Translations under genes and position numbers: made by a program | The notes under the pieces: model-generated | Told to the model about the DNA's origin: nothing | Databases searched by the model: none | What the model saw: the letters and a program-made list of their open reading frames with translations, nothing else | NCBI GenBank assembly: GCA_947168515.1 | Contig: CAMVMF010000004.1 | Location: forward strand, 42,073-106,072 | Direction of reading: 5' to 3' | DNA: 64,000 nucleotides | From: an uncultured Bacteroidales bacterium | GTDB lineage: Bacteria > Bacteroidota > Bacteroidia > Bacteroidales > P3 | Part shown: in pieces, positions 14,297 through 29,969 of the stretch | How the letters are laid out: each line of letters opens with the position of its first letter | How positions within the stretch are numbered: position 1 is the first letter of the stretch

Positions 14297-14319
14297 ACGA
14301 TGGCCCTACCGACCATCGT
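14297..14319. terminator. Bidirectional hairpin at attL (displaced tRNA-Arg terminator)
   Basis: ACGATGG and CCATCGT form a 7-bp stem with a 9-nt loop. On the plus strand it is followed by TTTG and can end rsgA. On the minus strand it is followed by TCTTTTGTTT and lies just past the att copy, where the tRNA-Arg terminator would have been before integration. Confidence 0.6.
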
Positions 14320-14338
14320 TTTGTACCCCCTGGGGGAA
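14317..14338. repeat. attL: 22-bp direct repeat of the tRNA-Arg 3' end
   Basis: A 22-bp sequence containing GTACCCCCTGGGGGAA is identical to 29948-29969, where it forms the 3' part of tRNA-Arg(CCT). The first base outside the repeat differs on both sides. It marks the left end of a 15.6-kb integrated element. Confidence 0.85.
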
Positions 14339-14375
14339 CACAACAAGCAATGAATTTCAGTATGTTATAAAATAT

Positions 14376-14402
14376 TTGGGAAAAATATGGGAAAGAACTT
14401 GA
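14376..14402. repeat. Integrase arm-type repeat, left
   Basis: Two TGGGAAA boxes about one helical turn apart followed by GAA.TTGA. A near-identical copy in the same orientation lies at 29795-29821 near the other att site (24 of 27 positions match). Paired repeats close to both att cores suit integrase arm-binding sites. Confidence 0.5.
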
Positions 14403-14459
14403 AAAAACAATGTAAAATTTCCACCCTTTCTATGGCTGATTTTTCCCCTTTTCGTGGTG

Positions 14460-14490
14460 CAAAGATACGGACATTTTCCGACATGGCAAA
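14460..14490 (-). promoter_or_regulatory. Leftward promoter near attL
   Basis: On the minus strand TTTG (14487-14490), a 19-bp gap and TATCTTTG (14460-14467) match the Bacteroidota promoter well. It fires out toward attL, where no coding frame with a good start is seen, so it may make a short RNA or be a relic. Confidence 0.5.
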
Positions 14491-14694
14491 AACTTTTTTT
14501 CCGCAGTCCTCCACGATCCGTCTCCGCTTTCCGCTCCCCACCGATGCCGGAGAATGAAAAAAAACTGCGTTCATTGTGTCAAATTCTCGATGGTACGGAG
14601 TGCGGTGCCAATAATCCAGGCAGTCGCAAAAGAATAGCCCGCCAAGATGAGCAGGGGCAGGCTTTCAACAAAGACGAAAAGGAAAGGATGCAGG

Positions 14695-15246
14695 TCAATA
14701 TGAATGATAGAGCCAATTGAGGTTTGAGTAGTACACGCCTTTTCGGGTGTGCCATTGTCCGAGTTTCACCACCATGTCACCACGCATAAAGATGAACCGA
14801 GACGAGCCACGCTGACTCTCTACATACCGCCACAAACGTTCTTTGTCCTCGTCCAGCAGGTCGGTGCGTTTGCCGTCCACGATGTCGTGGTACATCGGCA
14901 GGAAACGCTCACGGAAGAATATCTCGCTGTCGGTCATATCATCGTGGGAGGGGATAGGCAGAACGCCATTGTGGGCGAACCAAATGCCTGTTGCTGGGTC
15001 GTGGAACGGATGACAGTTCTCTTCGGTGACGGAGCCGTGGGTGGCGAGCCGGAAGTGGATTATACACGCAGCGTCCTTGTGTCGCCTTTTGATGGCTTGC
15101 AGGAAACAGGAGAGGTCGAGTGTCTTGCAGTGGTTCCCGTCTGCGTCTGCAAATCCCATGCCGTGGGGGTTGGCTCTGTGAATGGCTTTGAGTGTATTAA
15201 TGGGGGGTGTCTTAATGCCCGATGGAATGTAAAGTATGCAGCACAT
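14695..15246 (-). CDS. Class II glutamine amidotransferase-like protein
   Basis: Ntn-type glutaminase domain of 183 residues, predicted to release ammonia from glutamine. The ATG at 15246 puts Cys at residue 2, as this family needs for its N-terminal nucleophile; an upstream ATG at 15306 would bury it. Also visible are HFRLATHGS (64-72), the conserved ENCHPF (76-81) and AHNG (91-94). No synthase domain is attached. It is the last gene of a unit with an amidoligase of the glutamine-synthetase-like fold, so it probably supplies ammonia, or works on the same substrate, for amide-bond formation. The substrate is unknown. Confidence 0.75.
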   Translation of the reverse strand: MCCILYIPSGIKTPPINTLKAIHRANPHGMGFADADGNHCKTLDLSCFLQAIKRRHKDAACIIHFRLATHGSVTEENCHPFHDPATGIWFAHNGVLPIPSHDDMTDSEIFFRERFLPMYHDIVDGKRTDLLDEDKERLWRYVESQRGSSRFIFMRGDMVVKLGQWHTRKGVYYSNLNWLYHSY

Positions 15247-15271
15247 ATCTCTGTTTTTTTGTGGGTTTGTG

Positions 15272-15358
15272 TTATTGTCCGATAATGGCTCGGATGATTT
15301 CTTCAAGGGTCGTGCAGTCGGTCAAGTCTGCGGTGATGATGGCAATTGCTTTTTCCAT
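15272..15358 (-). CDS. Small open frame of 28 residues between amidoligase and amidotransferase
   Basis: ATG at 15358 to TAA at 15272, encoding MEKAIAIITADLTDC and then TTLEEIIRAIIGQ. It lies in the roughly 200-nt gap between the amidoligase stop and the amidotransferase start, on the same strand. It has no recognisable domain and could be a short helical peptide. Whether it is translated is unknown; its interest is its place beside two enzymes of a peptide/amide-modifying type. Confidence 0.3.
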   Translation of the reverse strand: MEKAIAIITADLTDCTTLEEIIRAIIGQ

Positions 15359-15455
15359 TGTGGTGTGTTTTTGTCTTGGGGTGTCTTGTATGGTTCTTTT
15401 GGCTTTTCACTGTCGGTTGTGGGTTGGTGTCCTTGCTGAGCCGATGCAGCCCCGA

Positions 15456-16382
15456 TTAGAGGGCTGCAAAGGCTTGGGAACGGCTGCTGAAGTATGCCTT
15501 TTCTTCTGCGGTCAGAAATTCGATGTCGTTGATTGACGCAACAGGGGCGGTCAGTCGGTTCTCGGCAGACCAGTGTACAAGTTTGATGCAGAAACGAGCC
15601 CATGCTGCTATTTTCTCGTAGTTGGTGCTGCCTTGGTGTTGGCGAAACTCGATTGTGTGATGTCTGCCCCAGGATGTGGCGTTGATTTTGTAGTAGCGGT
15701 CGTTGCTGAACACGTTGCAGATGTCACGGGCTGTCGTGGCTGCGGTCAGTTCGCCTTCGCTGATGTTGCCGTGCAGGGGTTGGCAGTAGTGGTTGCCGCT
15801 TCGTCTGCTGGGTGCCATGAATGAATCAATGACGGCTTCAAGATGGTAGTAGTTGGCGAACACGTTGCAGTATTGCCTTTCGCTGATGTTGCCGCCTACG
15901 TGGACGTGCAGACCCGTGGAGCGGTTCACCCTTGCACCAGCCTCGGTGAGGGTACTGCAACACGCCTTGAGGCTGTCGAAGCCTTGCTTGCTGTTGTTGA
16001 GTATGGGGCTGACACATTCGATTGGGTCGTTGCCGTGGATTGAGCTGTCGGGAACGAGTTTGTAGTGGCTGCGGTTGTCGGTGTGGTTGTACGACTCATG
16101 GCGAAAGTCCAGACCATGACGGCTGGCGATGATGCCGATTGTGTTGGGTCGTGCGTTGCAGCACTCTATTTCCACGCCGAAGGTGTACGATGCGAGGAGC
16201 TGCCGCCTTGCCCTGTCCGCCGCCGCTGCTTTCAGTCCCTGCCGTGCCACCATCCGCTCGGTGAAGAATAGGGTCTGAATGTCGGTCTCGGTAAGTCCGA
16301 TTTTGAGGAGTTTCTGCCGCTTTTCGGCTTTCGTGGCTTTCTCTTTCATTATGGCTTGCGCCTGTTCTCTTATGGTACTCAT
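15456..16382 (-). CDS. Amidoligase-family enzyme (glutamine-synthetase-like COOH-NH2 ligase)
   Basis: 308 residues of the Amidoligase_2 type: ATP-dependent ligases of the glutamine synthetase fold predicted to join a carboxyl to an amine. Key blocks are FGVEIEC (68-74, acidic metal ligands), KLVPDSSI (108-115), IECVSPIL (121-128), GLHVHVG (157-163), PSRR (191-194) and IEFRQHQGS (244-252). Residues 1-60 are a charged helical extension. It sits 18 nt after a 105-aa gene of unknown function and is followed by a class II glutaminase domain. Comparative genomics has described such ligase/amidotransferase pairs in phages and mobile elements, but substrates are not known. Confidence 0.82.
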   Translation of the reverse strand: MSTIREQAQAIMKEKATKAEKRQKLLKIGLTETDIQTLFFTERMVARQGLKAAAADRARRQLLASYTFGVEIECCNARPNTIGIIASRHGLDFRHESYNHTDNRSHYKLVPDSSIHGNDPIECVSPILNNSKQGFDSLKACCSTLTEAGARVNRSTGLHVHVGGNISERQYCNVFANYYHLEAVIDSFMAPSRRSGNHYCQPLHGNISEGELTAATTARDICNVFSNDRYYKINATSWGRHHTIEFRQHQGSTNYEKIAAWARFCIKLVHWSAENRLTAPVASINDIEFLTAEEKAYFSSRSQAFAAL

Positions 16383-16400
16383 TGCTGGGGGTGTTTGGGA

Positions 16401-16718
16401 TTATTGCTTGGTTATGCCATCGAGTAAGTTAGAGGGGGTGTTTACAAGTTCATCCTCTTGGTCGAGGACAGCCGAAAAGCCAACAAAATCCTGCACTTCT
16501 TTGACGAGGCTGCTGCCCGCCTCTTCAAGGTCGTGGAAGTTGGCTTCGAGCTTGCCCTCTTCATCCTCTTTTTGGAATGTGCCGACAAATTCAAGTATGT
16601 CGCTGAACACGCAGAACACTCGGCGGTAGAGTTCAATCGCAGCCTTGGTGCGGTTCGACAGATTGGTGGTTGCCGTTGCGGTCTGTTGTGCCGCTGTGGT
16701 GTTGGTCTTGTTGCTCAT
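16401..16718 (-). CDS. Hypothetical acidic helical protein of the amidoligase module
   Basis: 105 residues, not recognised. The first 20 residues are Thr/Ala/Gln-rich and probably disordered. The remainder is helical and acidic (QKEDEEGKLEANFHDLEE) with a hydrophobic segment around YRRVFCVFSDILEFVG. It lies between the WYL_2-like gene and the amidoligase with 18-19 nt gaps, so it is almost certainly cotranscribed. It could be a partner or substrate of the ligase; nothing in the sequence decides this. Confidence 0.6.
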   Translation of the reverse strand: MSNKTNTTAAQQTATATTNLSNRTKAAIELYRRVFCVFSDILEFVGTFQKEDEEGKLEANFHDLEEAGSSLVKEVQDFVGFSAVLDQEDELVNTPSNLLDGITKQ

Positions 16719-16737
16719 CTTTTTTGTGTTTTATGGG

Positions 16738-17061
16738 TTAAACAATGCTGATTAGGTTTGCTTTCTTGAAGCAGCGCCAAGCCTGCTTTTCGCTGTCGAA
16801 GTAGGTCTGCACGGTGTCGTTCTTCTGCCGCGGGTTGCCGTCGCTGGTCGGGGGAATCAAGGCGGCTGCAAGGGTTCCGTATGCCTCGCGGATTGTGCCG
16901 TCCACTTTCTGAAAGTAGAACTTTACGATGCGGCTCTTCATTGCCACACGAAGTTTGAAGTTGCGCCACGCCGTCTTGAGCGCGTCCGAAAGGGTCATAC
17001 CGTTGCGCTTGACGAACTGCCAGGCGGTCTGCATAATGTCTTTTAATGTCTCTCTTTTCAT
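16738..17061 (-). CDS. WYL_2 (DUF2693)-like SH3-fold protein
   Basis: 107 residues. An N-terminal helix pair (MTLSDALKTAW) is followed by a small beta-barrel (VKFYFQKVDGTIREAYGTL) and the ending VQTYFDSEKQAWRCFKKANLI, the pattern I know from the DUF2693/WYL_2 family common on Bacteroidales plasmids and islands. The function is unknown; SH3-like folds of this kind may bind nucleic acid or ligands. First gene of the leftward amidoligase unit, with a -7 box at 17108-17115. Confidence 0.7.
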   Translation of the reverse strand: MKRETLKDIMQTAWQFVKRNGMTLSDALKTAWRNFKLRVAMKSRIVKFYFQKVDGTIREAYGTLAAALIPPTSDGNPRQKNDTVQTYFDSEKQAWRCFKKANLISIV

Positions 17062-17107
17062 TGCTGTGAAAATTTATATTGTTGTATTATTTCTTAATTT
17101 TACACCG

Positions 17108-17115
17108 CAAAGATA
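17108..17115 (-). promoter_or_regulatory. -7 box of the amidoligase module
   Basis: TATCTTTG on the minus strand, 47 nt upstream of the WYL_2-like gene. It lies in a very A/T-rich divergent region (17062-17332) shared with the XRE regulator. Confidence 0.55.
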
Positions 17116-17298
17116 CAACATTATTTTAATATGATAAAATTTTTAACACTTTTATTTTACTTTTCTTTATATTTATTGAATTCAAATATTTGATTATTAC
17201 TTATATTACAACGATACAAAATTTTACTTTATTTTATAACTCAAACTATATTTTAACAAATAATTTTGCTTTTATTTCTGCAATTTGAGTATATTTTG

Positions 17299-17306
17299 TA
17301 TCTTTG
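17299..17306 (+). promoter_or_regulatory. -7 box of the XRE regulator gene
   Basis: TATCTTTG on the plus strand, 26 nt upstream of the regulator ATG. It is back to back with the promoter of the amidoligase unit. Confidence 0.55.
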
Positions 17307-17332
17307 CAATTGGATTTTGATATAATTAAATA

Positions 17333-17632
17333 ATGGATTTTAGAAGCAACATTAAAGCACTGTGTAAGTTACACGGCATTACACAGAAAGAGCTGGCGGA
17401 GAAAATCGGCATAACGAACTCCGCACTCAACATCTCGTTGAGCAAAAATAATCCTCGTTATTCAACCCTTGAGAGCATCGCCGAGGCTCTTGACGTGAGC
17501 GTGTCGCAGCTCCTGCAAACGCCGGAAGAGTGGGAACTGCAGAACGAGCAGCAGCCAGCCGAGGAGAATGCAAAGGTGCTGTGCTGCCCCCACTGCGGAG
17601 AGGAAATCGAACTTTACATCAAGGCTCTGTAG
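17333..17632 (+). CDS. XRE-family regulator with C-terminal zinc-ribbon-like motif
   Basis: 99 residues. Residues 5-62 form a lambda-repressor-like helix-turn-helix (GITQKELAEKIGITNSALN, then LESIAEALDVSVSQLL). The C-terminus carries CCPHCGEEIELYIK, half of a zinc-ribbon-like motif. It is transcribed away from the amidoligase unit and shares its 270-bp control region, so it probably represses or activates that unit and itself. A 41-aa membrane-protein frame follows 2 nt after its stop. Confidence 0.8.
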   Translation: MDFRSNIKALCKLHGITQKELAEKIGITNSALNISLSKNNPRYSTLESIAEALDVSVSQLLQTPEEWELQNEQQPAEENAKVLCCPHCGEEIELYIKAL

Positions 17633-17634
17633 GG

Positions 17635-17760
17635 ATGGATGTCCATACGGTTGAGGTTCTGCGAGCGGTGGTCGCCATAAGCGCAACCGTCTCTTTTGTT
17701 GCGTCGGTGGTGCTGCTGTGCCTTATCGTACTCCAGCGTCGGGAAGACAAACGCAAATAG
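17635..17760 (+). CDS. Small single-pass membrane protein
   Basis: 41 residues from the ATG at 17635, 2 nt after the XRE gene stop. The middle (VVAISATVSFVASVVLLCL) is a strong transmembrane helix and the end (QRREDKRK) is positively charged, so the C-terminus should face the cytoplasm. Not recognised. Tight coupling to the regulator supports it being real. Confidence 0.5.
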   Translation: MDVHTVEVLRAVVAISATVSFVASVVLLCLIVLQRREDKRK

Positions 17761-17814
17761 ACATCGCCCTGCGACCGTTCGGCGGTGTGCCTGGTGTACT
17801 CCTGCGCTGACCGT

Positions 17815-17959
17815 CTACGGATTTGTAGAAACTGCGAAAGGAGTATCTACAGATTTGTAGAAACCACGAAAGGAGAGCCTACAGATTTGTAGAAACCACG
17901 AAAGGAGAGCCTACAGATTTGTAGAAACTGCGGATAGGAGTTTGTAGAAACTGCGAATA
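17815..17959. repeat. 32-bp tandem repeat, 4.6 copies
   Basis: Units begin at 17815, 17847, 17879 and 17911 with an exact 32-bp period, and a partial fifth starts at 17941. Each full unit contains CTACAGATTTGTAG (CTACGG in the first), an inverted repeat with 5-bp arms, followed by AAAC and a CG-containing stretch. There are no spacers. Possible roles are protein-binding sites or an iteron array. Confidence 0.8.
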
Positions 17960-17997
17960 CAGCCGACAGATCTGTGCCGACGTATGGGCAAAAGAAA

Positions 17998-18023
17998 AGC
18001 CCGCTCCGATGAGGGAACGGGCT
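17998..18023 (-). terminator. Terminator of the higBA pair
   Basis: AGCCCG and CGGGCT stem; on the minus strand it is followed by TTTTCTTTTG. It lies about 75 nt past the higA stop. Confidence 0.65.
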
Positions 18024-18097
18024 GTGTGCTGTCAGTCAGCAATAGTTGGGCTTTTGTTGCCGTTGGTCTGTCTGTGTGTTGCGAAAAAGCAAGGGGA

Positions 18098-18424
18098 TTA
18101 CCAAAGAGCCACCCTGCCCATATCGCCAAGGTCAATGCTGGCGGTCTTTGCACCGAGAGCTTTGAACGCACGGAGGATTGATGAGTACGCAGGGCTTTTG
18201 CCGTTCTCAATCTTCGACACTTGGGATTTCTGTACCCCCATACGCTCACCGAGCTGCTCTTGGGTAAGTCCCTGTTTCCTGCGTTCTGCCTTGATTGCCT
18301 CGCCTATGCGATAATCATCGAGAGCCTTGCGGACTTCTGCCTCGTATTCTTCCCTTTCAGGAGTGCCTTTCTTGCCAACGTATTTGTCGAGCATCTGCTC
18401 TTGTGTCATTGCTTCCATATCCAT
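18098..18424 (-). CDS. higA: HigA-type XRE antitoxin
   Basis: 108 residues. A helical N-terminus (MLDKYVGKKGTPEREEYE) is followed by a helix-turn-helix (QGLTQEQLGERMGVQKSQVSK). The start at 18424 overlaps the last base of the toxin stop (TAATG). Toxin-first order with an XRE antitoxin behind is the HigBA arrangement. It should neutralise the toxin and repress the promoter at 18773-18780. Confidence 0.8.
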   Translation of the reverse strand: MDMEAMTQEQMLDKYVGKKGTPEREEYEAEVRKALDDYRIGEAIKAERRKQGLTQEQLGERMGVQKSQVSKIENGKSPAYSSILRAFKALGAKTASIDLGDMGRVALW

Positions 18425-18753
18425 TATTTTTTGAAGTACAGGTTTCTTATTTGTTCTGCTTTTGTAATTTCTTTTCTTGGTGTCTTTTGCGTCTTTTTCT
18501 CTATTCCGTGTGTGGCCACAATCAACGTATCGGTTCGAGTATCCCAAAACGAGAACAGTCTGTATTCGTTGCCGCTGTATTCTGTGCGGAGTTCCCATAT
18601 TTCTGACCCTTCAAGTTTTTTGAACAGCCTTGTGTCTTTCACACCACCGCACACCAGGTCGGCATTAAAGAATATCTTGCGCCTTGCCTTGTCGGGTAAC
18701 GAACCGATAAAGTCTTGTGCGTCTTTAAGATATATCACTTTTGCATTCATCAT
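18424..18753 (-). CDS. higB: HigB/RelE-type toxin
   Basis: 109 residues of the phage Gp49/HigB-like RelE family: VIYLKDAQDFIGSLP, KIFFNADLV, LFKKLEGSEIWELR, YRLFSFWD and TLIVATHGIEKKTQKTP are in the usual order. Members cleave mRNA on the ribosome. The longest frame opens at 18783, but the -7 box at 18773-18780 overlaps that start, so the ATG at 18753 (or 18750) is preferred. It is translationally coupled to the antitoxin. Confidence 0.82.
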   Translation of the reverse strand: MMNAKVIYLKDAQDFIGSLPDKARRKIFFNADLVCGGVKDTRLFKKLEGSEIWELRTEYSGNEYRLFSFWDTRTDTLIVATHGIEKKTQKTPRKEITKAEQIRNLYFKK

Positions 18754-18772
18754 TTCTTGATGTTTGATGTTG

Positions 18773-18780
18773 CAAAGATA
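18773..18780 (-). promoter_or_regulatory. -7 box of higBA
   Basis: TATCTTTG on the minus strand, 20 nt upstream of the preferred toxin start. Confidence 0.55.
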
Positions 18781-18839
18781 CAAAATATTTCCGACATAGG
18801 AAACTTTTTTGAAACATTTTTAAGAAAAGGCACAAAGAA

Positions 18840-18888
18840 AGCCCCACCATACAAATAGGACAACAGACGGAGAATTGTTGGTGGGGCT
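18840..18888 (-). terminator. Terminator of the tape-measure gene
   Basis: A 10-bp stem (AGCCCCACCA with TGGTGGGGCT) and a long loop; on the minus strand it is followed by TTCTTTG. The same stem sequence ends the small-terminase gene at 23306-23368. Confidence 0.7.
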
Positions 18889-18912
18889 GGCACAATAGGT
18901 ATTGCCGTGCTT

Positions 18913-21900
18913 TTAATTTCTTATCTTAACTCCGCGCATTTCGATTGTGTCTTTCAAATTATGGATGTCGTTGTCGATACGGACAAGACGCTCCGTGTAG
19001 ATCTCAATCTGCCGGACACTGCCGAGTATGGCGTTGGTGTTGTCGCGGATGATGTTGGAGTTTTCGGAGATTGTGAACGTATGCCCCTGGATGGTGGTGG
19101 CTCTGCCGTTCAGTTCGTCCACGCTGTCCTGCGAGGCTGTGGCAATGCCACGAGCCTGGGCAGAGCGGTCGTTGGCAGAGTCACCCCAGCCGAGTCCAGC
19201 CAAAGAGAATTGCTGGCGTACCTGCTCCCACAGGTCAGTTATGCCGCGACCAGTGGCACGCATATCGTTAGCTATTTGAGTGAAGTCTGCTGCGCTCCAA
19301 TCCACATTTGCCTGCCATCCCTCCACACTTGTATCAATGCCCTGCTGTTGTGCTAACTGTTTTTGGTAATTGTTGATTACTTGGTTGAGTCGCTGCATCA
19401 ACGGCTGAACGAAAACAGTCTGATAGATTATGTTCTTAATCATATCGTCAATGCTTTCGTCTATTTTCTTGAACACGGTAGTGAGGTTGTCGCCGAACTC
19501 CTTGAAGATGTCGAGCCACTTGTTTGCGAGGCTCTGCATATCTATGCCAGCAAGTCCCTCAAACATCTCGCGCACTCGTTCCTGTATGCTGTACGTTGCC
19601 TCGGCAATCTTGTTGTCAAGTTCGACAATCTCATCGGAGTTCTCGGAATAACCTTGAGCCAGAAGCTCATTTCTTTTTTGACGAAGCAGGTCGAGAGAGA
19701 GTTGGTCACCTTTTAGCAGGATATTGAAATATTCAATCGCATTAAGAGAGCCTTGCTCATACAAGGCGTTCATCTCCTCAATTAAAGCCTTGCGGCGAAG
19801 GTCTAACTCGTAGTCTTTGTGGTTCTCTTGATTGGCATATTGGTGTGTGATATTGCTCTCCACTCCGTGACCCCAATTAAGATAAAGGTTCATCAATCTA
19901 CGAAGGTCTGCCTCTGATAACGTTTCGTGGTTTTTTAGTTTGTCAAACGATGCATTCGTTTCTGCACTCCATCCTTCACGATATACAGGCAAATCAAAAT
20001 TTCTGAACAACTCCCACAAGTGATCCCAATCGAGTTGGGAAAAGGCGGCAAAAGTATCTGCCCCATTTCTTAATGCTCTCCAGTTGCTCTCGCTATCGTA
20101 ATTTGAATCAGAACGCAGGGAATTGATTGCATCAAGGAGCGATTTTCTGTAATTGCCATAGTCAAGTGACGAAATAGTGCTGTGCAGACTGTCAACAGAA
20201 CTGATAAGCGAGCCTATGCCGCTGATAACTTCCGAAAGATAGTCGTGTGCCTCTTCCGTGCGTTGCTCCTCTTCCTCTGCCCTTTGTGCGTCGGATTCCA
20301 ATATGCCAGTCAGAACCCCCTGCCCGATGCCGAGGACTGCGCCGATGACCGCTCCCCAACCGCCACCAATCTGGGCACCTGCGGCGGCATAGCTCCCTGC
20401 GGTGGAGATAGTGTCGGCGATGTCCTGGAACGTGTCGGCCATCTGCTCCAGCTTGGCGTTGTTGGTGGCCTCTGCGAACTCACGCATAGCGTCAGCGAGA
20501 CCGCCGACAATGCTCGACACCTTGCCCAGTCCGTTGACAAGGTAATCCACGCCCCGCTGCACCTCTTCCTTGGTCTTGCCCGTGAAAGCGTCGGAGAACG
20601 CCTCTTTGAGGCTGTAGCCCTTGCTCATATCACGCAGCTCGTTGCGAACCTCACGGATTCTCTGCTTGAGACTATCGAACTCGTCGGCGGTGAGGTGGGC
20701 TTGGTAGGCAAGGTTGAAATCATCGAGGCTCATCCCCTCCATTTCGTCAAGGGCGCGCTTCGCCTCCTCGATGTTCTCGACGGTCTGCTCATTGAACACG
20801 TCCCCGATGTTGTTTCGGATGAACTCCTGCTGTAGGTTCTTGACGGTTTGCTTGTATTGTTTTTCCAGTTCTTTCAATGAGGCTTGAAGTGCCGCCTTCT
20901 TCTTCGGGTCTGCCTCGGCATTTGCCGCCGCCTCAAGTTCGGCACGTTTTGTGCTATACTCTTCGTCGGTGTTGGTCAACTGCTGTTGAAATCCCACATA
21001 ATCACCAAGGAGCATATCAAAAAGTTCTTTCTGTTTCGATCTGTATGCTTGGTCGAAAAGAGCGAGCTGTTCATCCGATGCGCCTTTTTCCATCAGCTTG
21101 GCACGGTCAGCGTTGTATTGTTTTTCAAGTGCTATCCGCTGGGCAAAATATGACGAATCCGCCTCAATGATGCCAGCAATTGCTTCACGTTCATTCTGCT
21201 TCCATTTCGCATTCTCGTTCTCTCTGATTACGGCGAAACTATTAGCTATATCGACCAAACCTTGGCTGTATGATTCGAGTTCGTCGGAAGATAGCCCACT
21301 GTTCTCGTCGATGGGTTTGGCTCCGTTGTACGGGTTACTTTCGCTATCCGATTTCGGATGTTGTGCTGCCCATTCCTTTGCTTTCAGCTTTCGCCATTCG
21401 TTGACTTTTTCTTTTTCCTGTTCCTCAATCTTCGCGATTTCCTTTCGGTGGTTAAGGTCGAGCTGCTTTAATGTTTTGTCAAGGCCGCTCTCCATTGCGT
21501 CAATACCGATTTGTTCAATATCCCACGCCGTTTGCCGCTCGAGCTGCCCGGCAGATTGCCTGTATGCTGCCATAGCCTGTTCGTACTCGCGTTGCAGCCG
21601 TTTCTGCGTTTCCCGGTTGCGACGTGTCTGTTCGCTTCGTTCCCTCGCCCGTGACTCCTCTTCCCTCTTTTTGTTTCCATAGAGACCGTACAGCTTTGAT
21701 TCTATCTGTTCGATTTCTTGGTCAATCTCAAGGATGGATTTTTGCCCTTCGGCAGTCTCTTTGCTGTATAAGGCTTTCCTTTTCTGCGCACGGGCGATGT
21801 CCCAGTTGAGGGATGCCATTTGGATGAGAAGAGCTTTTTCGTATTCTCCGCCTGCAACAGCTTTCTCAAGAGCCTGTGTATAGGCATCCTGCATCGAGTG

Positions 21901-23181: not shown

Positions 23182-23208
23182 TTGTTTTATGTGTTAAAAA
23201 AACATTTG

Positions 23209-23305: not shown

Positions 23306-23368
23306 AGCCCCACCGCAGCGTGTGAAAATCTTGTTTTCGCAGGAAAGGAGCAGGTGCTGGGTGGGGCT
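23306..23368 (-). terminator. Terminator of the small-terminase gene
   Basis: AGCCCCACC pairs with GGTGGGGCT across a 45-nt loop; on the minus strand it is followed by TTCTTTGC. Stem and tail match the terminator after the tape-measure gene. Confidence 0.65.
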
Positions 23369-23410
23369 GTAACTGTAGTCGAAAGGCACTCGTAGATGTA
23401 ACCGAAACAA

Positions 23411-23848: not shown

Positions 23849-23879
23849 ATCGTTTGGGGGCTTTTCGTGATGTGTCGTT

Positions 23880-24734
23880 TTATATTCCGAGGCGTTGTAG
23901 GAACTCTTCGCCGTCGATAATCATCGAGGAGGTGAACCGGTAGCCCATCGCATCGCAGAAGTCAGCCAATCGGTCGGGGTTGTCGAACTGAAGCATGATG
24001 TACGCAGCATTCTCTGCGTTGCGGCTGTCCGATGTCTCGGTGTTGGTCTTTTTCTTGGCTTGTATCTCCTCCTTGCTGGCGTGGGGCTGTGCCGCCCTCT
24101 GCTCGGCTATATCGTCAAACGTCCGCTCGCTGCCGTTAAGGGTGTGCAGGGGCTGCTGCGTGGACTGCTTTGTCGGCTGCTGGGGTGCGGTGAGGAAGTC
24201 TGCCCCGAAGTCCTGTATCGGGGCAATGTCGGAGGCTGACACTATGAGGGATTGCAGTTGTGCGTAGTCCTCGTCCGACAGCCCGACGGCTTTTGCGTCT
24301 ATCTGGTCGGCATACTGTGCCACGAGGTTGTAGTCGGCTTTACTGTTGCCGATAGCCATATATGTGAGCTGCTCCAGTTCGGTCTTCTGGTCGAACTCCA
24401 CCACCTCCACCTTCAGCGTGTAGTCCGTGGCTGGTGTGCCGTCGTACTTGTGGATGATGTCGAGGGCCTGCACACGGCGGTGTCCGTCCACAAGGTTGCC
24501 AGTGGTGCGGTTCCACACGATGCCGCCGAGGTAGCCGTTGGCTTTGATGTTCGCCACCTGCTGCTTGACCTGCTTGTCTGTGTGCCGCTTGGGATTGTAG
24601 GGGTTGAGGACAATATCGCTGCGGAGGATATCCTGCGTCACGCTTTGCCTGATCTCCTTCGGCTGTTTCTTCGCCTTGGTGGTCGTGGCGGTCTTGCTGG
24701 CGTTGTCGTCTATGCTATTGCTTTGCTTGCTCAT
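23880..24734 (-). CDS. ParB/Srx-fold nuclease-domain protein (IbrB-like)
   Basis: 284 residues. The N-terminal ParB-like domain shows LNPYNPKRHTDKQVKQQVANI, GGIVWNRTTGNLVDGHRRVQALD (the GHRR phosphate-binding motif is intact) and a C-terminal region QDFGADFL. A low-complexity Thr/Gln linker (about 185-225) leads to a small C-terminal domain (AAYIMLQFDNPDRLADFCDAMGYRF). It overlaps the PAPS-reductase gene by 20 bp, so the two are coupled. ParB-like plus PAPS-reductase pairs (IbrB/IbrA) occur on phages and islands; their chemistry is not settled. Confidence 0.8.
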   Translation of the reverse strand: MSKQSNSIDDNASKTATTTKAKKQPKEIRQSVTQDILRSDIVLNPYNPKRHTDKQVKQQVANIKANGYLGGIVWNRTTGNLVDGHRRVQALDIIHKYDGTPATDYTLKVEVVEFDQKTELEQLTYMAIGNSKADYNLVAQYADQIDAKAVGLSDEDYAQLQSLIVSASDIAPIQDFGADFLTAPQQPTKQSTQQPLHTLNGSERTFDDIAEQRAAQPHASKEEIQAKKKTNTETSDSRNAENAAYIMLQFDNPDRLADFCDAMGYRFTSSMIIDGEEFLQRLGI

Positions 24735-25404
24735 GTTCGGTGATGATGAATCGGGTTCGTGGAAACTTGGTGTATATTTTTTCGAGGTCTGTGGGATAAT
24801 GCTGCTGGAGATATTTGAGGTAGTTGTAGTCGCTCACGTCGCAACCGCAGGACTGACCACCGCCGCCGTAGGATTCGGGGGCTTTGAGGTTGTTGTGGCT
24901 GATGTACTCCAGCACCTCCTTGTTGCCGTATGTGGACAGCGGATAGAATTTCTTTCCTGCATGGCAGATGCTCTCCTTGCCATTCTTGTAGGAACGGAGC
25001 ATCAAAAGGCGGTTGAGGCTGTCGGTCTGTTTGAATCCGAGACAAGCCCATTCCACACCAGTCCGCTCCCTCACCTTGTCTATGATGTCGGCGAGTTTCC
25101 ACAGCCTCTGTTTCGGGTTTTTCTCAATGCCCATATAGCCGTACTTTATCCAGGAGTAGAGTCCGTAGTGAGGCACCTGCATCCATTCGGCGTTTTGGTA
25201 CTTGTTGGCGGCGTATGCGTGATATGGCTTGATGTGGTCGAGGTCGGGGATGACGTACATATACACGCAGACGATTCGCCTGAAATGAGGGGAGCAGAGG
25301 TCGAGCAGGGCTATGCTGTCCTTGCCGGAGAGGGAGTGCATCAGAATGATGCTGTCGGTCTCGGCTGCAATGTCTCTGATTATCTCTTTTGCTCGTTCTA
25401 ACAT
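24715..25404 (-). CDS. PAPS-reductase-family ATP pyrophosphatase (IbrA-like)
   Basis: 229 residues from the ATG at 25404. The PP-loop LSGKDSIALLD (residues 25-35), VPHYGLYSWIKYGYMG, GFKQTDSLNRLLML and a Cys-containing tail (GGGGQSCGCDVSDYNYL) place it in the adenylyl-transfer PAPS reductase/DndC/IbrA group. The frame extends upstream to 25629, but that 75-residue stretch is low-complexity and hydrophilic, so I start at MLERAKEII. Mobile-element members are associated with DNA or nucleotide modification rather than sulfate assimilation; no dnd genes are nearby. Translationally coupled to the ParB-like gene. Confidence 0.82.
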   Translation of the reverse strand: MLERAKEIIRDIAAETDSIILMHSLSGKDSIALLDLCSPHFRRIVCVYMYVIPDLDHIKPYHAYAANKYQNAEWMQVPHYGLYSWIKYGYMGIEKNPKQRLWKLADIIDKVRERTGVEWACLGFKQTDSLNRLLMLRSYKNGKESICHAGKKFYPLSTYGNKEVLEYISHNNLKAPESYGGGGQSCGCDVSDYNYLKYLQQHYPTDLEKIYTKFPRTRFIITEHEQAKQ

Positions 25405-25667
25405 CTTGTGTGGTGTCTGTCGGGTGTCCTTGTTGTTGATTTTTGCGTTTCTTTTGCCCTCTGTGGGCGTTTTCTTGTGTTGGGTGGTCGGTTGTCCGTC
25501 CTCGGTCTGTTCGTGGCTCTGTGGGGCGGTTCCGTGGCTCTGTGTGGCTCTTGTGTCTGTTCCCTTATCTGCGGAGTGTCGCTTGTGGCATTGTTTGAAA
25601 GGCTGCGGTGCTACACAGAAACACCACAAAGCCTTTCACATTGCCGCTTTCGCTGCGTCATTGGACG

Positions 25668-25805
25668 TTATCCAAGTACACGCGGACGGCGGCGGCTGGC
25701 TGCACCCATGCTTGAGGCTCTTCCCTGCCAGTATCTGTCCTCGGTGCGGTATCGGGTGACAGTGCCGTCGGGATTCTGCCTCTGGGCATAATACTCTCGT
25801 GCCAT
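25668..25805 (-). CDS. Small basic protein of 45 residues
   Basis: ATG at 25805 to TAA at 25668, with the Shine-Dalgarno-like AGAAAGGAG 8 nt upstream, unusually strong for this phylum. It begins MAREYYAQRQNPDGTVTRY and ends in an Arg-rich tail (SRRRPRVLG). Not recognised. It lies between the ASCH and PAPS-reductase genes on the same strand. An overlapping 60-aa frame (25658-25840) is less convincing. Confidence 0.5.
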   Translation of the reverse strand: MAREYYAQRQNPDGTVTRYRTEDRYWQGRASSMGAASRRRPRVLG

Positions 25806-25876
25806 AGCATTCTCCTTTCTGATTTTTGAGGGTTAGACAATCGGGTTAATTATCAGACAAAATTTTCAACTATCAA

Positions 25877-26323
25877 TCAAAGTCCACGGCTGCTCACGAT
25901 GTCGCAAATGTGGAACCAAAAGAACCACGGTCGGTCGTCCCTTGGCATTTTGGCGTACTGCTGCCACTCGTTGTCGTAGTCGTGGAAACCGAATCGGTCG
26001 CCCAAGTCCTTGATGTCCTCTTCGCACATACAGGCAAGCCCGCAGTAGTCGAGCAGGACGTTCAGTTCATACCGCCCGCCTCTGTCGTAGAAGTGGATGG
26101 CGAAGATGTCTTTCATCGGCCACACAAGGTCGGAGAGCCGTCCCTCTTCCCTGGCTTTGGCGTTGAGAGCCGTCTTGTCGGGGTCGAGGAACATTTCACA
26201 ATTCTTGTTGCTATAGGAGCGTATCTCTACAGTCTTGCTGCCGCTCAATATCTCTTGGGCATGGGTCTTGTAGATGGTGAGGCTGTACGCCTCTTCTTTC
26301 TGTCCGTCGTATTCTATCTGCAT
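25877..26323 (-). CDS. ASCH/PUA-like domain protein
   Basis: 148 residues. LTIYKTHAQEILSGSKTVEIRSYS is the usual opening of an ASCH domain, a PUA-like fold thought to bind RNA or modified nucleotides; IFAIHFYDRGGRYEL follows. The end (RPWFFWFHICDIV) is aromatic-rich. The start at 26323 is preferred over 26347 because the -7 box TAATTTTG lies at 26345-26352. Phage ASCH proteins have been proposed to act on nucleic acid or to block host defence; nothing here tells which. Confidence 0.65.
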   Translation of the reverse strand: MQIEYDGQKEEAYSLTIYKTHAQEILSGSKTVEIRSYSNKNCEMFLDPDKTALNAKAREEGRLSDLVWPMKDIFAIHFYDRGGRYELNVLLDYCGLACMCEEDIKDLGDRFGFHDYDNEWQQYAKMPRDDRPWFFWFHICDIVSSRGL

Positions 26324-26344
26324 AGTGTCTCGGTTTTTTATTTG

Positions 26345-26352
26345 CAAAATTA
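26345..26352 (-). promoter_or_regulatory. -7 box of the ASCH gene
   Basis: TAATTTTG on the minus strand, 21 nt upstream of the preferred ATG. Confidence 0.45.
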
Positions 26353-26814
26353 CGAAATTTATTTGATATGTGCAAGATTTTCTTCAAGTTATGTCGCTTT
26401 TGGTTGCGGAGGTGTCCGATTTCTCTACACGCACGCGATTAGCTGTTGTGTTTGTCGGGTTTGGTGGAGTGGTCGGTGGTGCTGCGGTCGGGGTCGCACG
26501 CGCGGTGTTTTCTCTGTCTGTCGCCTGTTGCACGGGGTGAGTCGCCCTGCCTGTCTGTCGCTGCCCCTCGCCCTCGCCGTGGTTGTCTCTGACCTCGCCA
26601 CCCTGCCTGCGTAGCACTGGCGAAAATCCGAAAGGGAAAAACGACGGCGTGTCTGTCTGTTGTCATTTCTCGCGTGTCTGTCTGGCAGACATGCCGTCTT
26701 TTTTCTTTTTTTTTCTTTCTTTCATCTGACTCTGATTCTATATCTATATCTTTATCTGTTCAACAAGTGTTCAACAAGTGTTCAACAAGTGTTCAACAAG
26801 TGTTCAACAAGTGT
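26348..26814. other. Candidate origin region, no confident gene
   Basis: Between the ASCH promoter and the replication gene. The right part has five 11-bp iteron-like repeats (26757-26811) next to a long pyrimidine tract rich in T (about 26697-26756). The left part is GC-rich with two overlapping Arg/Thr/Pro-rich frames that look like chance. Confidence 0.55.
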
Positions 26815-26820
26815 TCAATA
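26757..26820. repeat. Iteron-like 11-bp repeats, five full copies and one partial
   Basis: TGTTCAACAAG is repeated exactly from 26757 to 26811, and a partial sixth copy ends at 26820. Each unit holds the palindrome TGTTCAACA. The array starts within the stop codon of the replication gene and borders a T-rich tract, the usual build of an iteron-type replication origin. Confidence 0.75.
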
Positions 26821-27393
26821 ATCTCCGTCTCTTTTGAGTTTTTGAACCCATCGTTTCAAAGATGCTCTCCAATATTTTATTACTGGTTTGTTGTCTTCAT
26901 CATAAAACCCAATAGTGTTGTTATAATCATACCATCGTTTTCCCACACTAACATCAATGTTATTTTTCTTACAGTACTCCTTCACTTCGTCTTCCGTTGG
27001 CACTTTCCACACGTCGGCTGTTTCATTTTTCCCTGCTCGTTTTGCCGCCGATACTCTACCTGCCACAGCTCGTTTCTCGGAAGTGGCCACCACATCATCC
27101 ATGTGTTTTTTCAATCGTGGCGAGTAGAAGAATTTAAAATCATTGTCAAATTCAAATAATCCATAATTTTGCACAACTTTTTCCACCAGCTCTTCATTTG
27201 AACCAATCTTGTATGCGATAGCCTTGTAATTGTCGGACAATTTGAAGTTTTCGGAAGTCGCAAGTAGTTCGAGAATCATAAAATATATGCCGTAGCCTGC
27301 TGCTCCCAAGTCTATCCTGAGATTGATGATTTTATCGTCATTTCGAGCCTCAACGTCATGTTTGAACCAGTACATTGCCATTAATTTGCCCAT
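26815..27393 (-). CDS. DUF4373/Lin1244-type replication protein
   Basis: 192 residues. The N-terminal 100 residues (YWFKHDVEARNDDKI, LGAAGYGIYFMILELLA, FYSPRLKKHMD) match the winged-helix domain found at the N-terminus of phage replication initiation or helicase-loader proteins. A linker (KRAVAGRVSAAKRAG) leads to a small C-terminal domain (DVWKVPTEDEVKEYC). The ATG overlaps the preceding stop (TGATGG). The TGA stop lies in the edge of an 11-bp repeat array. Most likely the origin-binding or loader protein of the element. Confidence 0.72.
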   Translation of the reverse strand: MGKLMAMYWFKHDVEARNDDKIINLRIDLGAAGYGIYFMILELLATSENFKLSDNYKAIAYKIGSNEELVEKVVQNYGLFEFDNDFKFFYSPRLKKHMDDVVATSEKRAVAGRVSAAKRAGKNETADVWKVPTEDEVKEYCKKNNIDVSVGKRWYDYNNTIGFYDEDNKPVIKYWRASLKRWVQKLKRDGDY

Positions 27394-27641
27394 CAGTCAC
27401 CTCCTTTCCGGCGATGTTCAAACAGCGGGCTCAACTCCTCGACCTCTGCCATGTGTTCACGGTAGTTCTCGGCGGTGATGCCTCGCCGTTTCAGCTCGTC
27501 AAGAAACGGCTGGTATTTGTCGTAGTCCTTGATGGTGATGAGAACCATCTCGTCACGTTTTTTCTTCGGTGTGCTGCCCCGCCTGGTCTTCCTCTTGGGC
27601 TTTGCCTTGTACGAGGTCGGTCTCTTGTTGTTTTTCTTCAT
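27393..27641 (-). CDS. Small basic protein of the replication operon
   Basis: 82 residues from the ATG at 27641, which overlaps the previous stop (ATGA). A strongly basic N-terminus (KKNNKRPTSYKAKPKRKTRR) and a helical acidic C-terminus (YDKYQPFLDELKRRG). Not recognised; the basic tail suggests nucleic-acid binding. Confidence 0.6.
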   Translation of the reverse strand: MKKNNKRPTSYKAKPKRKTRRGSTPKKKRDEMVLITIKDYDKYQPFLDELKRRGITAENYREHMAEVEELSPLFEHRRKGGD

Positions 27642-27865
27642 TGTTGTTGCTCCTTTCCGTTGTCTATCCAGTAGCGTTTGAAGTACCTGCCGTCCTCTGC
27701 CGTCCATTCGTCGAGGATTGGAACGCCGAGGTAGCGGAGACGGGATATTTGACACCCTACAGAGGTTATGCAAGTGCCGAGCTTTTCGCCAAGTTCCTGC
27801 ATCGTGTGTCTTCTGCCGTCGGATAGTGCCTCTATAACTCCGTCCTTCAATGGTGCCTTTCTCAC
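27638..27865 (-). CDS. Winged-helix protein B (GTG start)
   Basis: 75 residues. The GTG at 27865 overlaps the TGA of the preceding gene (GTGA), and the gene ends in an ATGA overlap with the next. The fold is a small winged helix: DGVIEALSDGRRHTMQEL, ISRLRYLGVPILDEW, RYFKRYWID. It is a tandem paralogue of 27862-28077. Confidence 0.7.
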   Translation of the reverse strand: MRKAPLKDGVIEALSDGRRHTMQELGEKLGTCITSVGCQISRLRYLGVPILDEWTAEDGRYFKRYWIDNGKEQQQ

Positions 27866-28077
27866 TGCTGGCTGATTAATGTATAAACTTTGTAACGCAC
27901 CCCCTGCGAGTTCACGCACCACTCGTCCACGATCTGTACGCCTTTGGCACGGAGGTGGCTGATTGATGTCCTTGCGTCCGATGTCTTGCAAAGGTCGTTC
28001 AGCTCGTAGTTGCTATGGGGCTTGCCGTCGGCGAGGATGGCGAGGATTGCCGCCTGTGTGGGTGCTTTCTGTTTCAT
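27862..28077 (-). CDS. Winged-helix protein A
   Basis: 71 residues. AILAILADGKPHSNYELNDL, SISHLRAKGVQIVDEW and GVRYKVYTL give a small winged helix of the kind found in phage and plasmid helix-turn-helix proteins. It shares the DEW and RYK-Y blocks with the next gene. The ATG at 28077 overlaps the previous stop (ATGA). Confidence 0.72.
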   Translation of the reverse strand: MKQKAPTQAAILAILADGKPHSNYELNDLCKTSDARTSISHLRAKGVQIVDEWCVNSQGVRYKVYTLISQQ

Positions 28078-28310
28078 ACGGCTGCTGGTTTGCGGGTTAT
28101 CTGACGGGCCTGCTCCTCGATTTCGCTTTGAGGGACGATACGTGCCGAGCCAATGATTTTGTTCAGTTCCGATTTCAGAAAGTAAAGTTTCTTCCCGAAA
28201 GGCTTGTATGCCGGAATAACTCTTTTGTGGGTGTACTGGTACATCTGCCCAGTTGTGATGCCGAGATATTGACAAGCAGCCTCAAATGTGATAAAATCTT
28301 CGTTGTTCAT
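28074..28310 (-). CDS. Excisionase-like MerR/HTH_17 protein
   Basis: 78 residues: FITFEAACQYLGITTGQMYQYTHKRVIPAYKPFGKKLYFLKSEL is a MerR-type helix-turn-helix of the excisionase class. The longer frame from 28403 crosses the -7 box TATTTTTG at 28343-28350, so the ATG at 28310 is chosen. It is first in a five-gene chain of overlapping stops and starts down to 26815, so it may also regulate that operon. Confidence 0.75.
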   Translation of the reverse strand: MNNEDFITFEAACQYLGITTGQMYQYTHKRVIPAYKPFGKKLYFLKSELNKIIGSARIVPQSEIEEQARQITRKPAAV

Positions 28311-28342
28311 TATACTGAATATTTTATTATGTTTTTCGGCTG

Positions 28343-28350
28343 CAAAAATA
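28343..28350 (-). promoter_or_regulatory. -7 box of the excisionase/replication operon
   Basis: TATTTTTG on the minus strand, 32 nt upstream of the excisionase start. Confidence 0.5.
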
Positions 28351-28421
28351 ATAAGAAAAAATCGGATTTTTTGCAAGAAGAATTTGATAAACTCGTTAGT
28401 CAAATAAAAAGTGTTTTAATT

Positions 28422-28499
28422 TGTCTGTTTTTGTTGTATTCTGTTGTTTTTGTTAAAAAGTTTAACTTTCCAAATAACAGAATACAACAAAAACAGACA
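28422..28499. repeat. Perfect 24-bp inverted repeat between xis and int
   Basis: The arm 28422-28445 is exactly the reverse complement of 28476-28499. The 30-nt spacer holds a second small hairpin (GTTAAA, AAG, TTTAAC). It overlaps the tail of the integrase terminator. Possible roles: regulator site, origin-type hairpin or strong bidirectional terminator. Confidence 0.85.
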
Positions 28500-28526
28500 C
28501 CCCACTTTCTATAATTTGGGGTGTCT
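28495..28526 (-). terminator. Integrase terminator
   Basis: AGACACCCCA and TGGGGTGTCT form a 10-bp stem with a 12-nt loop. On the minus strand it is followed by GTTTTTGTTG. About 40 nt past the integrase stop. Confidence 0.7.
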
Positions 28527-28564
28527 TTGGGTGTTTTTACAAAAAATTGGAGTGTCCGAGGGCG

Positions 28565-29740
28565 TTATTCCTCGATGCTGGGCAGGCTGTTCACAAGCTC
28601 CCTCTTGCGGTCGTCGAATACCTTGGTGTAAATCTGCGTGACCTTGGTGTCGGCGTGGCCCAGCAGCTCCGAGGTCGCCCGCAGGTCTTTGAGGTTGTAG
28701 TACGTGTTGGCACCAAAGGAGTGTCGGGCGCAATGCCACGTGATGTGCTTGTTGATTCCGGCACGGCTCACCCAGTGCTGGAGCGATTTGTTGCAAGCCA
28801 CGGGACTGCCGAGGTGGAAGACGAGACTGTCTGGCTCTCCTTTGCCTATCATCGCCAGCACGTCGGGACGCAGGGGTACGGTGTTGGTGCGCCTGGTTTT
28901 CTGCTGCTGGAACGTGAGGGTGCATTCCTCATAGTTGATGTTGCGGTACCGCAGCTCCTTGACATCGCAGAACCGCAGCCCTGTGAAGAGGGAGAGGATG
29001 AACGCACGCCGCACATCGTCACTCTGTCGGTCGAACTTGCATTGCAGGAGCCTGGTAATCTCGTCGGCGGTCAAAACGTCCTTCTTCAGTCGCCCTTCGT
29101 CCTCCACCTTTGCCGTGATGCCGTCGCATGGGTTGTCGAGGAACACGCCCTGCTTGGTGGCCGCTGTGATGATTTTCTTGAAACGCTTGTAGAGGGTCTT
29201 GGCTCCCTCGCCTCTGCAATCCTTCTCCAGTTGCTCCACGAATGCCTCCACAAGGTCGGGGGTGAGTTGGTCGGGGTGGATGCACTTCGAGAAGAGTGCG
29301 TAGCGTCTGCTGCCCTCGATGAACGAGCGGAACCGCTTCACGGAGAGCCGCAACACCCTCTCGTCAGCCTTGGAGTACTCGCCGATGTAGTCCTCAAACC
29401 ATTCGTAGAGGTTTATCTTGCTGCGGTCGGCGGCGAACATAAAGCCTCGGCTTTTCGACAGGAACTCCCTCTCCCTCGTTTCCCTCACCACCTTGGCGGT
29501 CTCCTTTGTCACTCGGTTGTGTTCGCTCTCGGCAGGGGTGAGGTGCTTTTTGTTCCACAACCATAGGTCGGTTTTCTCCTGCTTCCGTTGCTGGCGATAT
29601 GTCCTTTTTCCCTCCTCGTCCACTTCGATGGTGTTGCCGAGTATGTACACCAGCCGCAACTTCACAATCTCCCCACCGCGTGCTTCCCTCATCTCAACAT
29701 AAGGGTTTCCGCTGATTAAAATACTCTTACTCTTTGCCAT
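28565..29740 (-). CDS. int: Tyrosine site-specific integrase
   Basis: 391 residues with an arm-binding N-terminus, SAM-like core-binding domain (about 110-205) and catalytic domain. All catalytic residues are seen: Arg256 (TGLRFCDV), Lys281 region (QQKTRRTNTVPL), His336 and Arg339 (HCARHSFG), His362 (LGHADTKVT) and Tyr371 (IYTK). It is of the Bacteroidetes integrase type and lies next to the tRNA-Arg att site, transcribed away from it. It should integrate and excise the 15.6-kb element between the 22-bp repeats. The -7 box is at 29771-29778. Confidence 0.95.
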   Translation of the reverse strand: MAKSKSILISGNPYVEMREARGGEIVKLRLVYILGNTIEVDEEGKRTYRQQRKQEKTDLWLWNKKHLTPAESEHNRVTKETAKVVRETREREFLSKSRGFMFAADRSKINLYEWFEDYIGEYSKADERVLRLSVKRFRSFIEGSRRYALFSKCIHPDQLTPDLVEAFVEQLEKDCRGEGAKTLYKRFKKIITAATKQGVFLDNPCDGITAKVEDEGRLKKDVLTADEITRLLQCKFDRQSDDVRRAFILSLFTGLRFCDVKELRYRNINYEECTLTFQQQKTRRTNTVPLRPDVLAMIGKGEPDSLVFHLGSPVACNKSLQHWVSRAGINKHITWHCARHSFGANTYYNLKDLRATSELLGHADTKVTQIYTKVFDDRKRELVNSLPSIEE

Positions 29741-29770
29741 ATTATTTTATGATATCTTATTTTATTTTTG

Positions 29771-29778
29771 CAAAGATA
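29771..29778 (-). promoter_or_regulatory. -7 box of the integrase gene
   Basis: TATCTTTG on the minus strand, 30 nt upstream of the integrase ATG and 17 nt from the right arm-type repeat, so integrase could repress its own gene. Confidence 0.55.
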
Positions 29779-29794
29779 CATTTTATTTTTATTT

Positions 29795-29821
29795 TTGGGA
29801 AAGATTTGGGAAAGAATTTGA
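29795..29821. repeat. Integrase arm-type repeat, right
   Basis: Matches 14376-14402 at 24 of 27 positions in the same orientation, with two TGGGAAA boxes. Located between the integrase promoter and attR. Confidence 0.5.
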
Positions 29822-29929
29822 GTAAAAAATATAAAATAACAACAAATAAACTCAAATACCCCTTTGTTGGGTGATTATTCGTAAACACTTGGTTTATAGC
29901 AATATTATACTATGTTTCAGGCAATAAAA

Positions 29930-29947
29930 AAGGAGGTCGTTTGACCT
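29930..29947 (-). terminator. Terminator of tRNA-Arg supplied by the element
   Basis: GGAGGTC and GACCTCC form a 7-bp stem with a 4-nt loop. On the minus strand it is followed by TTTTTTATT. It begins directly after the att repeat, inside the element. Confidence 0.75.
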
Positions 29948-29969
29948 CCGTTTTGTACCCCCTGGGGGA
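29948..29969. repeat. attR: 22-bp repeat inside tRNA-Arg
   Basis: Identical to 14317-14338. It covers the end of the T loop, the 3' half of the T stem and the 3' acceptor strand of tRNA-Arg, plus a few bases beyond. Confidence 0.85.

Follow-up and report, generated by a model that had tools for sequence, protein, structure and literature searches.

Introduction

Phage-inducible chromosomal islands (PICIs) and the Staphylococcus aureus pathogenicity islands (SaPIs) among them are recognised by their size, an integrase at one end, divergent regulators, a replication gene, a small terminase (TerS) and attachment (att) repeats at the 3' end of a tRNA gene; capsid genes of their own are the defining trait of capsid-forming PICIs (cf-PICIs). 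How does an island of about 15.6 kb in a Bacteroidales chromosome, at positions 14317-29970 of a 64,000-nucleotide stretch of contig CAMVMF010000004.1 (the whole stretch is called the window below), compare with such elements? It resembles PICIs and SaPIs in each of the features listed, and differs from them in carrying a structural tail gene, for a tape-measure protein (TMP) of 1,422 aa, and a Bacteroidota backbone of PAPS-reductase-like, ParB-like and amidoligase-GATase genes. With cf-PICIs it shares the possession of some structural genes, and differs in that no capsid gene was found. We consider it most likely that the island is a phage satellite, which would be excised upon induction by a helper phage, use its own TerS to choose DNA for helper heads, and contribute its own TMP to helper tails.

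Phage satellites are described as elements of about 7-20 kb without virion structural genes (PMC13376191), an absence that also belongs to the usual definition of PICIs and from which the TMP of this island departs. Structural tail genes have a precedent in the phage-inducible chromosomal island-like elements (PLEs) of Vibrio cholerae, which encode a TMP together with a tail assembly chaperone (TAC) and assemble chimeric tails that include parts of the helper; deletion of tmp cuts transduction by about 96% for PLE1, 99% for PLE4 and 99.9% for PLE11 (PMC12987554). The available text of that study (Nature 2026) cites no earlier report of a satellite TMP, and its Extended Data Fig. 10 legend mentions putative tmp genes in a sampling of cf-PICIs (PMC12987554). 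The island is like PLE1, PLE4 and PLE11 in having its own TMP and unlike them in that no TAC of its own was found, there being no chaperone-sized ORF (open reading frame) before the TMP. By description, it is further set apart from PLEs by the host phylum, by a long mosaic TMP directly after TerS, and by the use of tRNA sites.

Results

The island is bounded by exact copies of a 22-bp direct repeat (CGTTTTGTACCCCCTGGGGGAA), attL at 14317-14338 and attR at 29949-29970, the latter overlapping the 3' end of the target gene, tRNA-Arg(CCT) (29955-30027, minus strand), just as the sequence-only reading had it. Between 13001-15500 and 29741-30200, the end regions that were compared, no other repeat of at least 14 bp is shared. 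That reading had also made its proposal depend on the island being a discrete unit among relatives, and a genome of the same genus (G022, locus L075) indeed has infB, tRNA-Arg(CCT) and RsgA adjacent to one another without the island; its infB is 99.1% identical to that of the window over the 451 residues present, and its tRNA 3' stem is unlike the window's. This empty site is one of 30 RsgA loci fetched, the window's own included, from a survey in which 104 of 120 searched genomes had an RsgA match; the 28 others have no infB within about 1.5 kb of RsgA and are therefore uninformative, neither for nor against the island as a unit. As judged from these comparisons of sequence, the island is a discrete integrated unit.

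Within these limits, profile and repeat searches recovered all the genes on which the original proposal was built. A tyrosine integrase of 391 aa (28565-29740, minus strand; PF00589 7.2e-18, PF13102) is followed by an HTH_17 excisionase-like gene (28074-28403, minus; PF12728 5.3e-9, phrog_66) and a replication gene with a Lin1244_N domain (26815-27393, minus; PF14297 1.9e-11, phrog_2562 4e-17), at whose stop codon sit iterons, 5.6 perfect copies of the 11-bp unit TGTTCAACAAG (26757-26818). Further along the same strand lie TerS, of 145 aa (23411-23848, minus; phrog_4044 4.1e-6), whose homologues usually precede a large terminase (TerL), and the 1,422-aa TMP (18913-23181, minus; phrog_9959 4.1e-44). 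The predicted lack of capsid, portal, large terminase and conjugation genes also holds, no such family being found in the 20 ORFs scanned with Pfam and PHROGs profiles; capsid profiles gave no match in the full-type phages discussed below either, the "capsid" of a Millionella prophage being assigned by position only (no Pfam match). The locus thus has what is generally expected of a phage satellite, a discrete att-bounded element with integrase, regulatory and replication genes and, among the 20 ORFs scanned, an incomplete set of virion genes. As it has genes for integration, replication and packaging and no recognisable one for a shell, the island likely travels in the particles of another virus.

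Is this arrangement a lone wreck? Related att-bounded islands show that it is not. A search with ParB matched 7 of 190 genomes of the family, 5 of them well, its own included. Att-bounded islands lie at the 3' end of tRNA-Leu(CAA) in a metagenome-assembled genome (MAG) from goat rumen (G033; about 11.5 kb, 39-bp repeat), a MAG from yak (G055; about 11.3 kb, 15-bp repeat) and an IMG/VR contig (L004; about 16.8 kb, 18-bp repeat), with the backbone conserved in L004 and G033 and partly in G055. The integrases of L004 and G033 are 75-81% identical to that of the window, yet target tRNA-Leu instead of tRNA-Arg; the att core contains GGTACAAA in the window, L004 and G033, and GGTAC in G055. On the whole L004 contig (L055), a second TerS piece at about 17086-17406, beyond attR, may be what is left of another element inserted in tandem at this tRNA-Leu.

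The genes that follow TerS vary among these islands. In the window it is the TMP, with only a 53-aa ORF (23253-23414) overlapping the gap between the two; in L004 it is a 154-aa gene and then a TMP of 1,566 aa, the three genes being spaced 36 and 39 bp apart; in G033 it is a Gp49 pair without a TMP; and in G055, where TerL stands directly before TerS, it is a toxin-antitoxin-type HTH gene, again without a TMP. G033 and the window can be aligned on both flanks of the TMP, with no TMP between them in G033. The type of toxin-antitoxin pair is not tied to the TMP, as the window and G033 have one type, L004 and G055 another. By sequence, then, the slot after TerS is one that changes its content among relatives.

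The genes that the islands share are kept intact. Nine genes common to the window, L004 and G033 are free of internal stops, and their ratios of nonsynonymous to synonymous substitution rates (dN/dS) lie between 0.05 and 0.26 wherever computable, with one cI pair saturated and several dS values above 1. For the C-terminal part of the TMP, window and L004 are 62% identical over 716 codons, with pN of 0.26, pS of 0.72 and dS near saturation. On these substitution patterns, the shared island genes are under purifying selection. This bears on the idea that the island is a plain satellite of the TerS type, its TMP being neutral or moron cargo gained by recombination with prophages, as the backbone relatives G033 and G055, which have no TMP, would allow. 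Selection on the C-terminal part of the TMP speaks against mere cargo, as does the occurrence of a TMP in two lineages or more, perhaps three, in which no capsid gene is recognised, and we regard this idea as very unlikely.

Could the island be a decayed prophage instead, the remains of a PAPS-ParB-TerS-type phage stripped of its head genes and most of its tail genes, with TerS and TMP surviving by chance? Its front module and TerS are common to full-type phages, which we define by TerL, portal, a gene in the chaperone position, TMP and neighbouring late genes, and random deletion should spare large genes more often. The phages G587 and IMG103 and the Millionella prophage resemble the island in homologous ParB, TerS and TMP and in WYL_2, the first two also in amidoligase and GATase; all three differ in having their own TerL, a portal and many more late-region genes. 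The gene order, however, is not that of the island. The 35-kb phage contig G587 reads, on the minus strand, portal-amidoligase-GATase, 6.5 kb on the chaperone-position gene and TMP, and later PAPS-ParB-TerS-TerL-WYL_2, its TerS being 63% and that of the IMG103 type 50% identical to the window's; IMG103 reads ParB-TerL-WYL_2-portal-amidoligase-GATase, with the chaperone-position gene and TMP 19.6 kb on. Read as circles, the two agree in their order, TMP coming after GATase and before PAPS, and in both the amidoligase-GATase pair follows the portal (12 of 65 amidoligase loci read). In the islands, TMP stands between TerS and WYL_2-amidoligase-GATase, upstream of this pair rather than downstream, so that deletion alone is no explanation and the TMP must have been inserted or moved. 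Prophages of Millionella and Capnocytophaga, which share this front module, carry WYL_2 ahead of ParB and gave, over the parts read, no match to amidoligase or GATase, so that the argument from order rests on two phages. A full prophage at this same locus with capsid and portal genes between TerS and TMP had been named beforehand as what would speak against a satellite; TerL and portal do lie between the two in full-type prophages with this TerS, though not at this locus. Together with the intact genes and low dN/dS in three islands, the same flanks without a TMP in G033, and a second case of TerS-TMP adjacency in Alistipes, this order makes a decayed prophage quite unlikely.

The Alistipes case is a 10.8-kb MAG contig (L047) with ASCH-PAPS-ParB-TerS and, 302 bp later, a TMP of 1,229 aa; a short ORF of about 70 codons is readable between the two genes. 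The same MAG also has a contig with TerL and portal, as well as another TMP fragment (56.5% identity over its best stretch), and its binning may be wrong. Another Alistipes contig (L046, 9,656 bp) has ASCH-PAPS-ParB-TerS, WYL_2, a regulator and an integrase and no TMP. No overlap was seen between its ends, which join in frame within one ORF, both parts matching one 266-aa prophage protein, as would be expected of a circle. Thus three relatives are att-bounded and a fourth closes as a circle would. The 21-kb IMG/VR record 3300021254_003613 combines an integrase, primase- and helicase-like genes, TMP, PAPS-ParB-TerS and amidoligase-GATase with no TerL, portal or capsid family among its scanned ORFs, IMG/VR records being possibly fragments. 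In G425, a stretch reads integrase-TerS-ASCH-PAPS-ParB; nothing within it matches TMP or TerL, and for TerL the genome has only a weak match. Two further candidates were withdrawn, G020, in which most compared genes are 90-100% identical to the IMG58 and IMG103 contigs and whose own contig stops nearby, and G031, on whose contig phage tail genes lie upstream; both may be full prophages that were cut.

What kind of gene is the TerS? Among 44 TerS loci in viral contigs, searched for a TerL-like ORF within 4.5 kb, 37 had one, 16 of these resting on two reference TerLs that are themselves weakly supported; one locus had a TMP (L004), three met a contig end and three had neither. The sequence evidence is that this TerS family normally precedes TerL. 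An order-wide search matched 49 of 393 genomes, with E < 1e-25 in only three (the window's own, G425 and G341), the remaining matches being weak, partial and in the HTH region. A profile search against solved structures gave one 25-residue peptide only. PICIs redirect helper packaging with a TerS of their own; the island has a TerS, and for it this role is a prediction.

The TMP, in turn, is a mosaic. Over residues 698-1422 it is 59% identical to the TMP of L004, and to a prophage-type TMP 45% in the best stretch. With the IMG103 TMP, identity is 56-57% over residues 1-378 and 528-800 and 40% over residues 801-1422; over the latter it is 61% with L004, and the N-terminal half of the L004 TMP is nearest to phage G587 (36-44%). 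In 34 aligned TMPs, the median identity to the window in 75-residue blocks is 15-34% up to residue 750 and 54-77% past it, with dips to 29 and 42%. Three close relatives of the window's TMP (P0002, P0011 and P0013) share 94-100% identity with it across residues 1-825 and diverge later, down to 18-33% at about 976-1350, before a conserved end, the pattern of a segment exchanged near the tail-tip (C-terminal) end. Residues 698-1422, used as a protein query, drew 195 matches, of which 120 were listed; 51 of these (own included) precede a fall in E-value from 3.5e-152 to 1.3e-31. Among 297 relatives, 12 matched the TMP, its own included, the other 11 partially at 22-37% identity (surroundings read for 8); in the viral contigs, a single-protein scan confirmed no relative and an alignment-based one recovered two (L004 and IMG103). 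In a tree built from the C-terminal 650 residues of 17 TMPs, of which 13 are phage-type and 4 come from islands or island-like contigs (one fragment was left out), the satellite label has to change three times, on branches with good support. The mosaics and the tree indicate repeated exchange with phage TMPs, insofar as sequence comparison can tell.

One may also ask whether the TMP acts against the helper, as a weapon or decoy that spoils helper tails or blocks superinfection without being part of satellite particles. It may be its own transcription unit. By eye, a terminator-like hairpin follows TerS in the window and in G033, and another follows the window's TMP; a terminator scan gave 32 sites against 20.9 expected, flagging the site after the TMP (18861-18841) and none directly after TerS. 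TACTTTTG (23209-23216, minus), 35 bp before the TMP, is a weak -7-like box that matches the Bacteroides -7 box TAnnTTTG, with a -33 box at 2/4; sigma-70 promoter scans are ill-suited to Bacteroidota. In addition, interference with tail assembly is reported as a bacterial defence, PICIs being named among the carriers of such immune systems (PMC11364771). The TMP is nevertheless full-length with a conserved C-terminal part, L004 retains a tail-chaperone-like gene tightly spaced with TerS and TMP, and PLE TMPs enter virions, so that we hold an anti-helper role to be unlikely.

All recognised genes of the island are on the minus strand except one divergent regulator. Between HTH_17 and the Lin1244_N gene lie three small overlapping ORFs of 126, 117 and 137 aa (27393-28275, minus), conserved in L004 and G033. 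Next come an ASCH-like gene (25877-26347, minus; PF04266 0.058, below cut-off), 88% identical in L004 and 96% in G033, a PAPS-reductase-like gene (24715-25629, minus; phrog_424 8.5e-19) and a ParB-like gene (23880-24734, minus; phrog_9353 2e-42), which lead to TerS and TMP. Beyond the TMP, a putative toxin-antitoxin pair of a Gp49/RelE-like toxin (18424-18783, minus; PF05973 4.4e-18) and an HTH antitoxin-like gene (18098-18598, minus; PF01381 5e-12) precedes the divergent HTH repressor-like regulator, called cI (17333-17632, plus; PF01381, phrog_8); the interval between the divergent regulators holds a 32-bp repeat in 3.6 copies (17815-17928), which are possible operators. The island then continues with WYL_2 (16738-17061, minus; PF10902 4.8e-24), a conserved 105-aa ORF (16401-16718, minus; 41% identical in L004 and 71% in G033), the amidoligase-like gene (15456-16382, minus; PF12224 1.4e-33, phrog_2443) and the class-II glutamine amidotransferase-like gene (GATase; 14695-15306, minus; PF13230 1.6e-6), conserved in L004 and G033. 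The amidoligase-GATase pair (14695-16382 in the window; also L175, L177, L136 and L137) recurs in phages and islands. The TMP has a hydrophobic segment at about residues 329-352. Megablast found no DNA match in 50,697 phage and 72,556 plasmid records, PADLOC gave only weak matches, to the HTH, toxin and ParB-like regions, and NCBIfam had no name for TMP or TerS, the TMP matching only SMC models, far below cut-off.

Discussion

What can be said of the life of this island? In the satellite reading, growth of a helper phage, perhaps of the G587/IMG103 type, would lead to excision and replication of the island, its own TerS would direct island DNA into helper heads, and its TMP would nucleate or measure chimeric tails built with helper parts, with a possible gain such as escape from, or competition with, helper tail assembly. 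From what is known of tape measures, the better conserved ~670 C-terminal residues could attach to the tip of the helper tail, and the ~750 N-terminal residues, which are exchanged, could help to set tail length. The proposal of a satellite, as first made from the sequence, has gained from the att ends of the relatives, from purifying selection and from the position of the TMP; the use of a helper and the role in tails are what we infer.

Several observations weigh against this reading. Neither a circular nor a packaged form of the window's island was seen. In its own assembly (93% complete) no helper prophage was found, the only two TerL-family matches there being weak and partial (the family also matches 11 of 14 control genomes), and the only TMP match in it is the island's own. 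PAPS-ParB-TerS are also the front genes of full-type phages, and the fold model of TerS is mediocre (pLDDT 73), with weak fold matches only (best 2ao9, E 0.086). Unlike L004 and the PLEs, the window has no tail-chaperone-sized ORF before its TMP, and in L004 the 154-aa gene is a tail-chaperone candidate by position and weak homology, for which a fold search gave nothing useful. Neither length nor phylogeny separates satellite from phage TMPs: the lengths overlap, with 1,229 (L047), 1,422 (window), 1,443 (3300021254_003613) and 1,566 aa (L004) in the island types and 1,185-1,862 aa in the 13 phage-type ones, and in a shuffle test of the tree, which has some long branches, 131 of 500 shuffles needed as few label changes, hence no significant clustering of the satellite label.

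How much of this is new? The sequence-only reading had thought that the reshaping of helper tails by a satellite TMP might be undescribed in Bacteroidota. The principle has already been proven for PLEs (PMC12987554), and searches of the open-licence PMC literature turned up no description of such a family in Bacteroidota or Bacteroides, going by titles, the openings of abstracts and, for PMC12324425, passages of text. Thus, while the principle is known, what look new are the Bacteroidota family, its mosaic TMPs and the slot after TerS with its changing content. More tentatively, it is possible that these islands represent a satellite family of Bacteroidota with an exchangeable hijack slot after TerS, which has no morphogenesis gene or holds a TMP or a chaperone with a TMP, TerL standing beside TerS elsewhere. 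In such a family, chimeric TMPs would keep a C-terminal part proper to the satellites and trade their N-terminal half with local phages, so that hybrid tails might be re-tuned to the helper in circulation.

Closely related islands with and without a TMP make the idea of hybrid tails testable. As a natural experiment, they could show what a TMP brings to a satellite, be it in helper range, in evading interference with tails or in harming the helper. If the satellite family is as we propose, chimeric-tail piracy would have arisen several times outside Vibrio.

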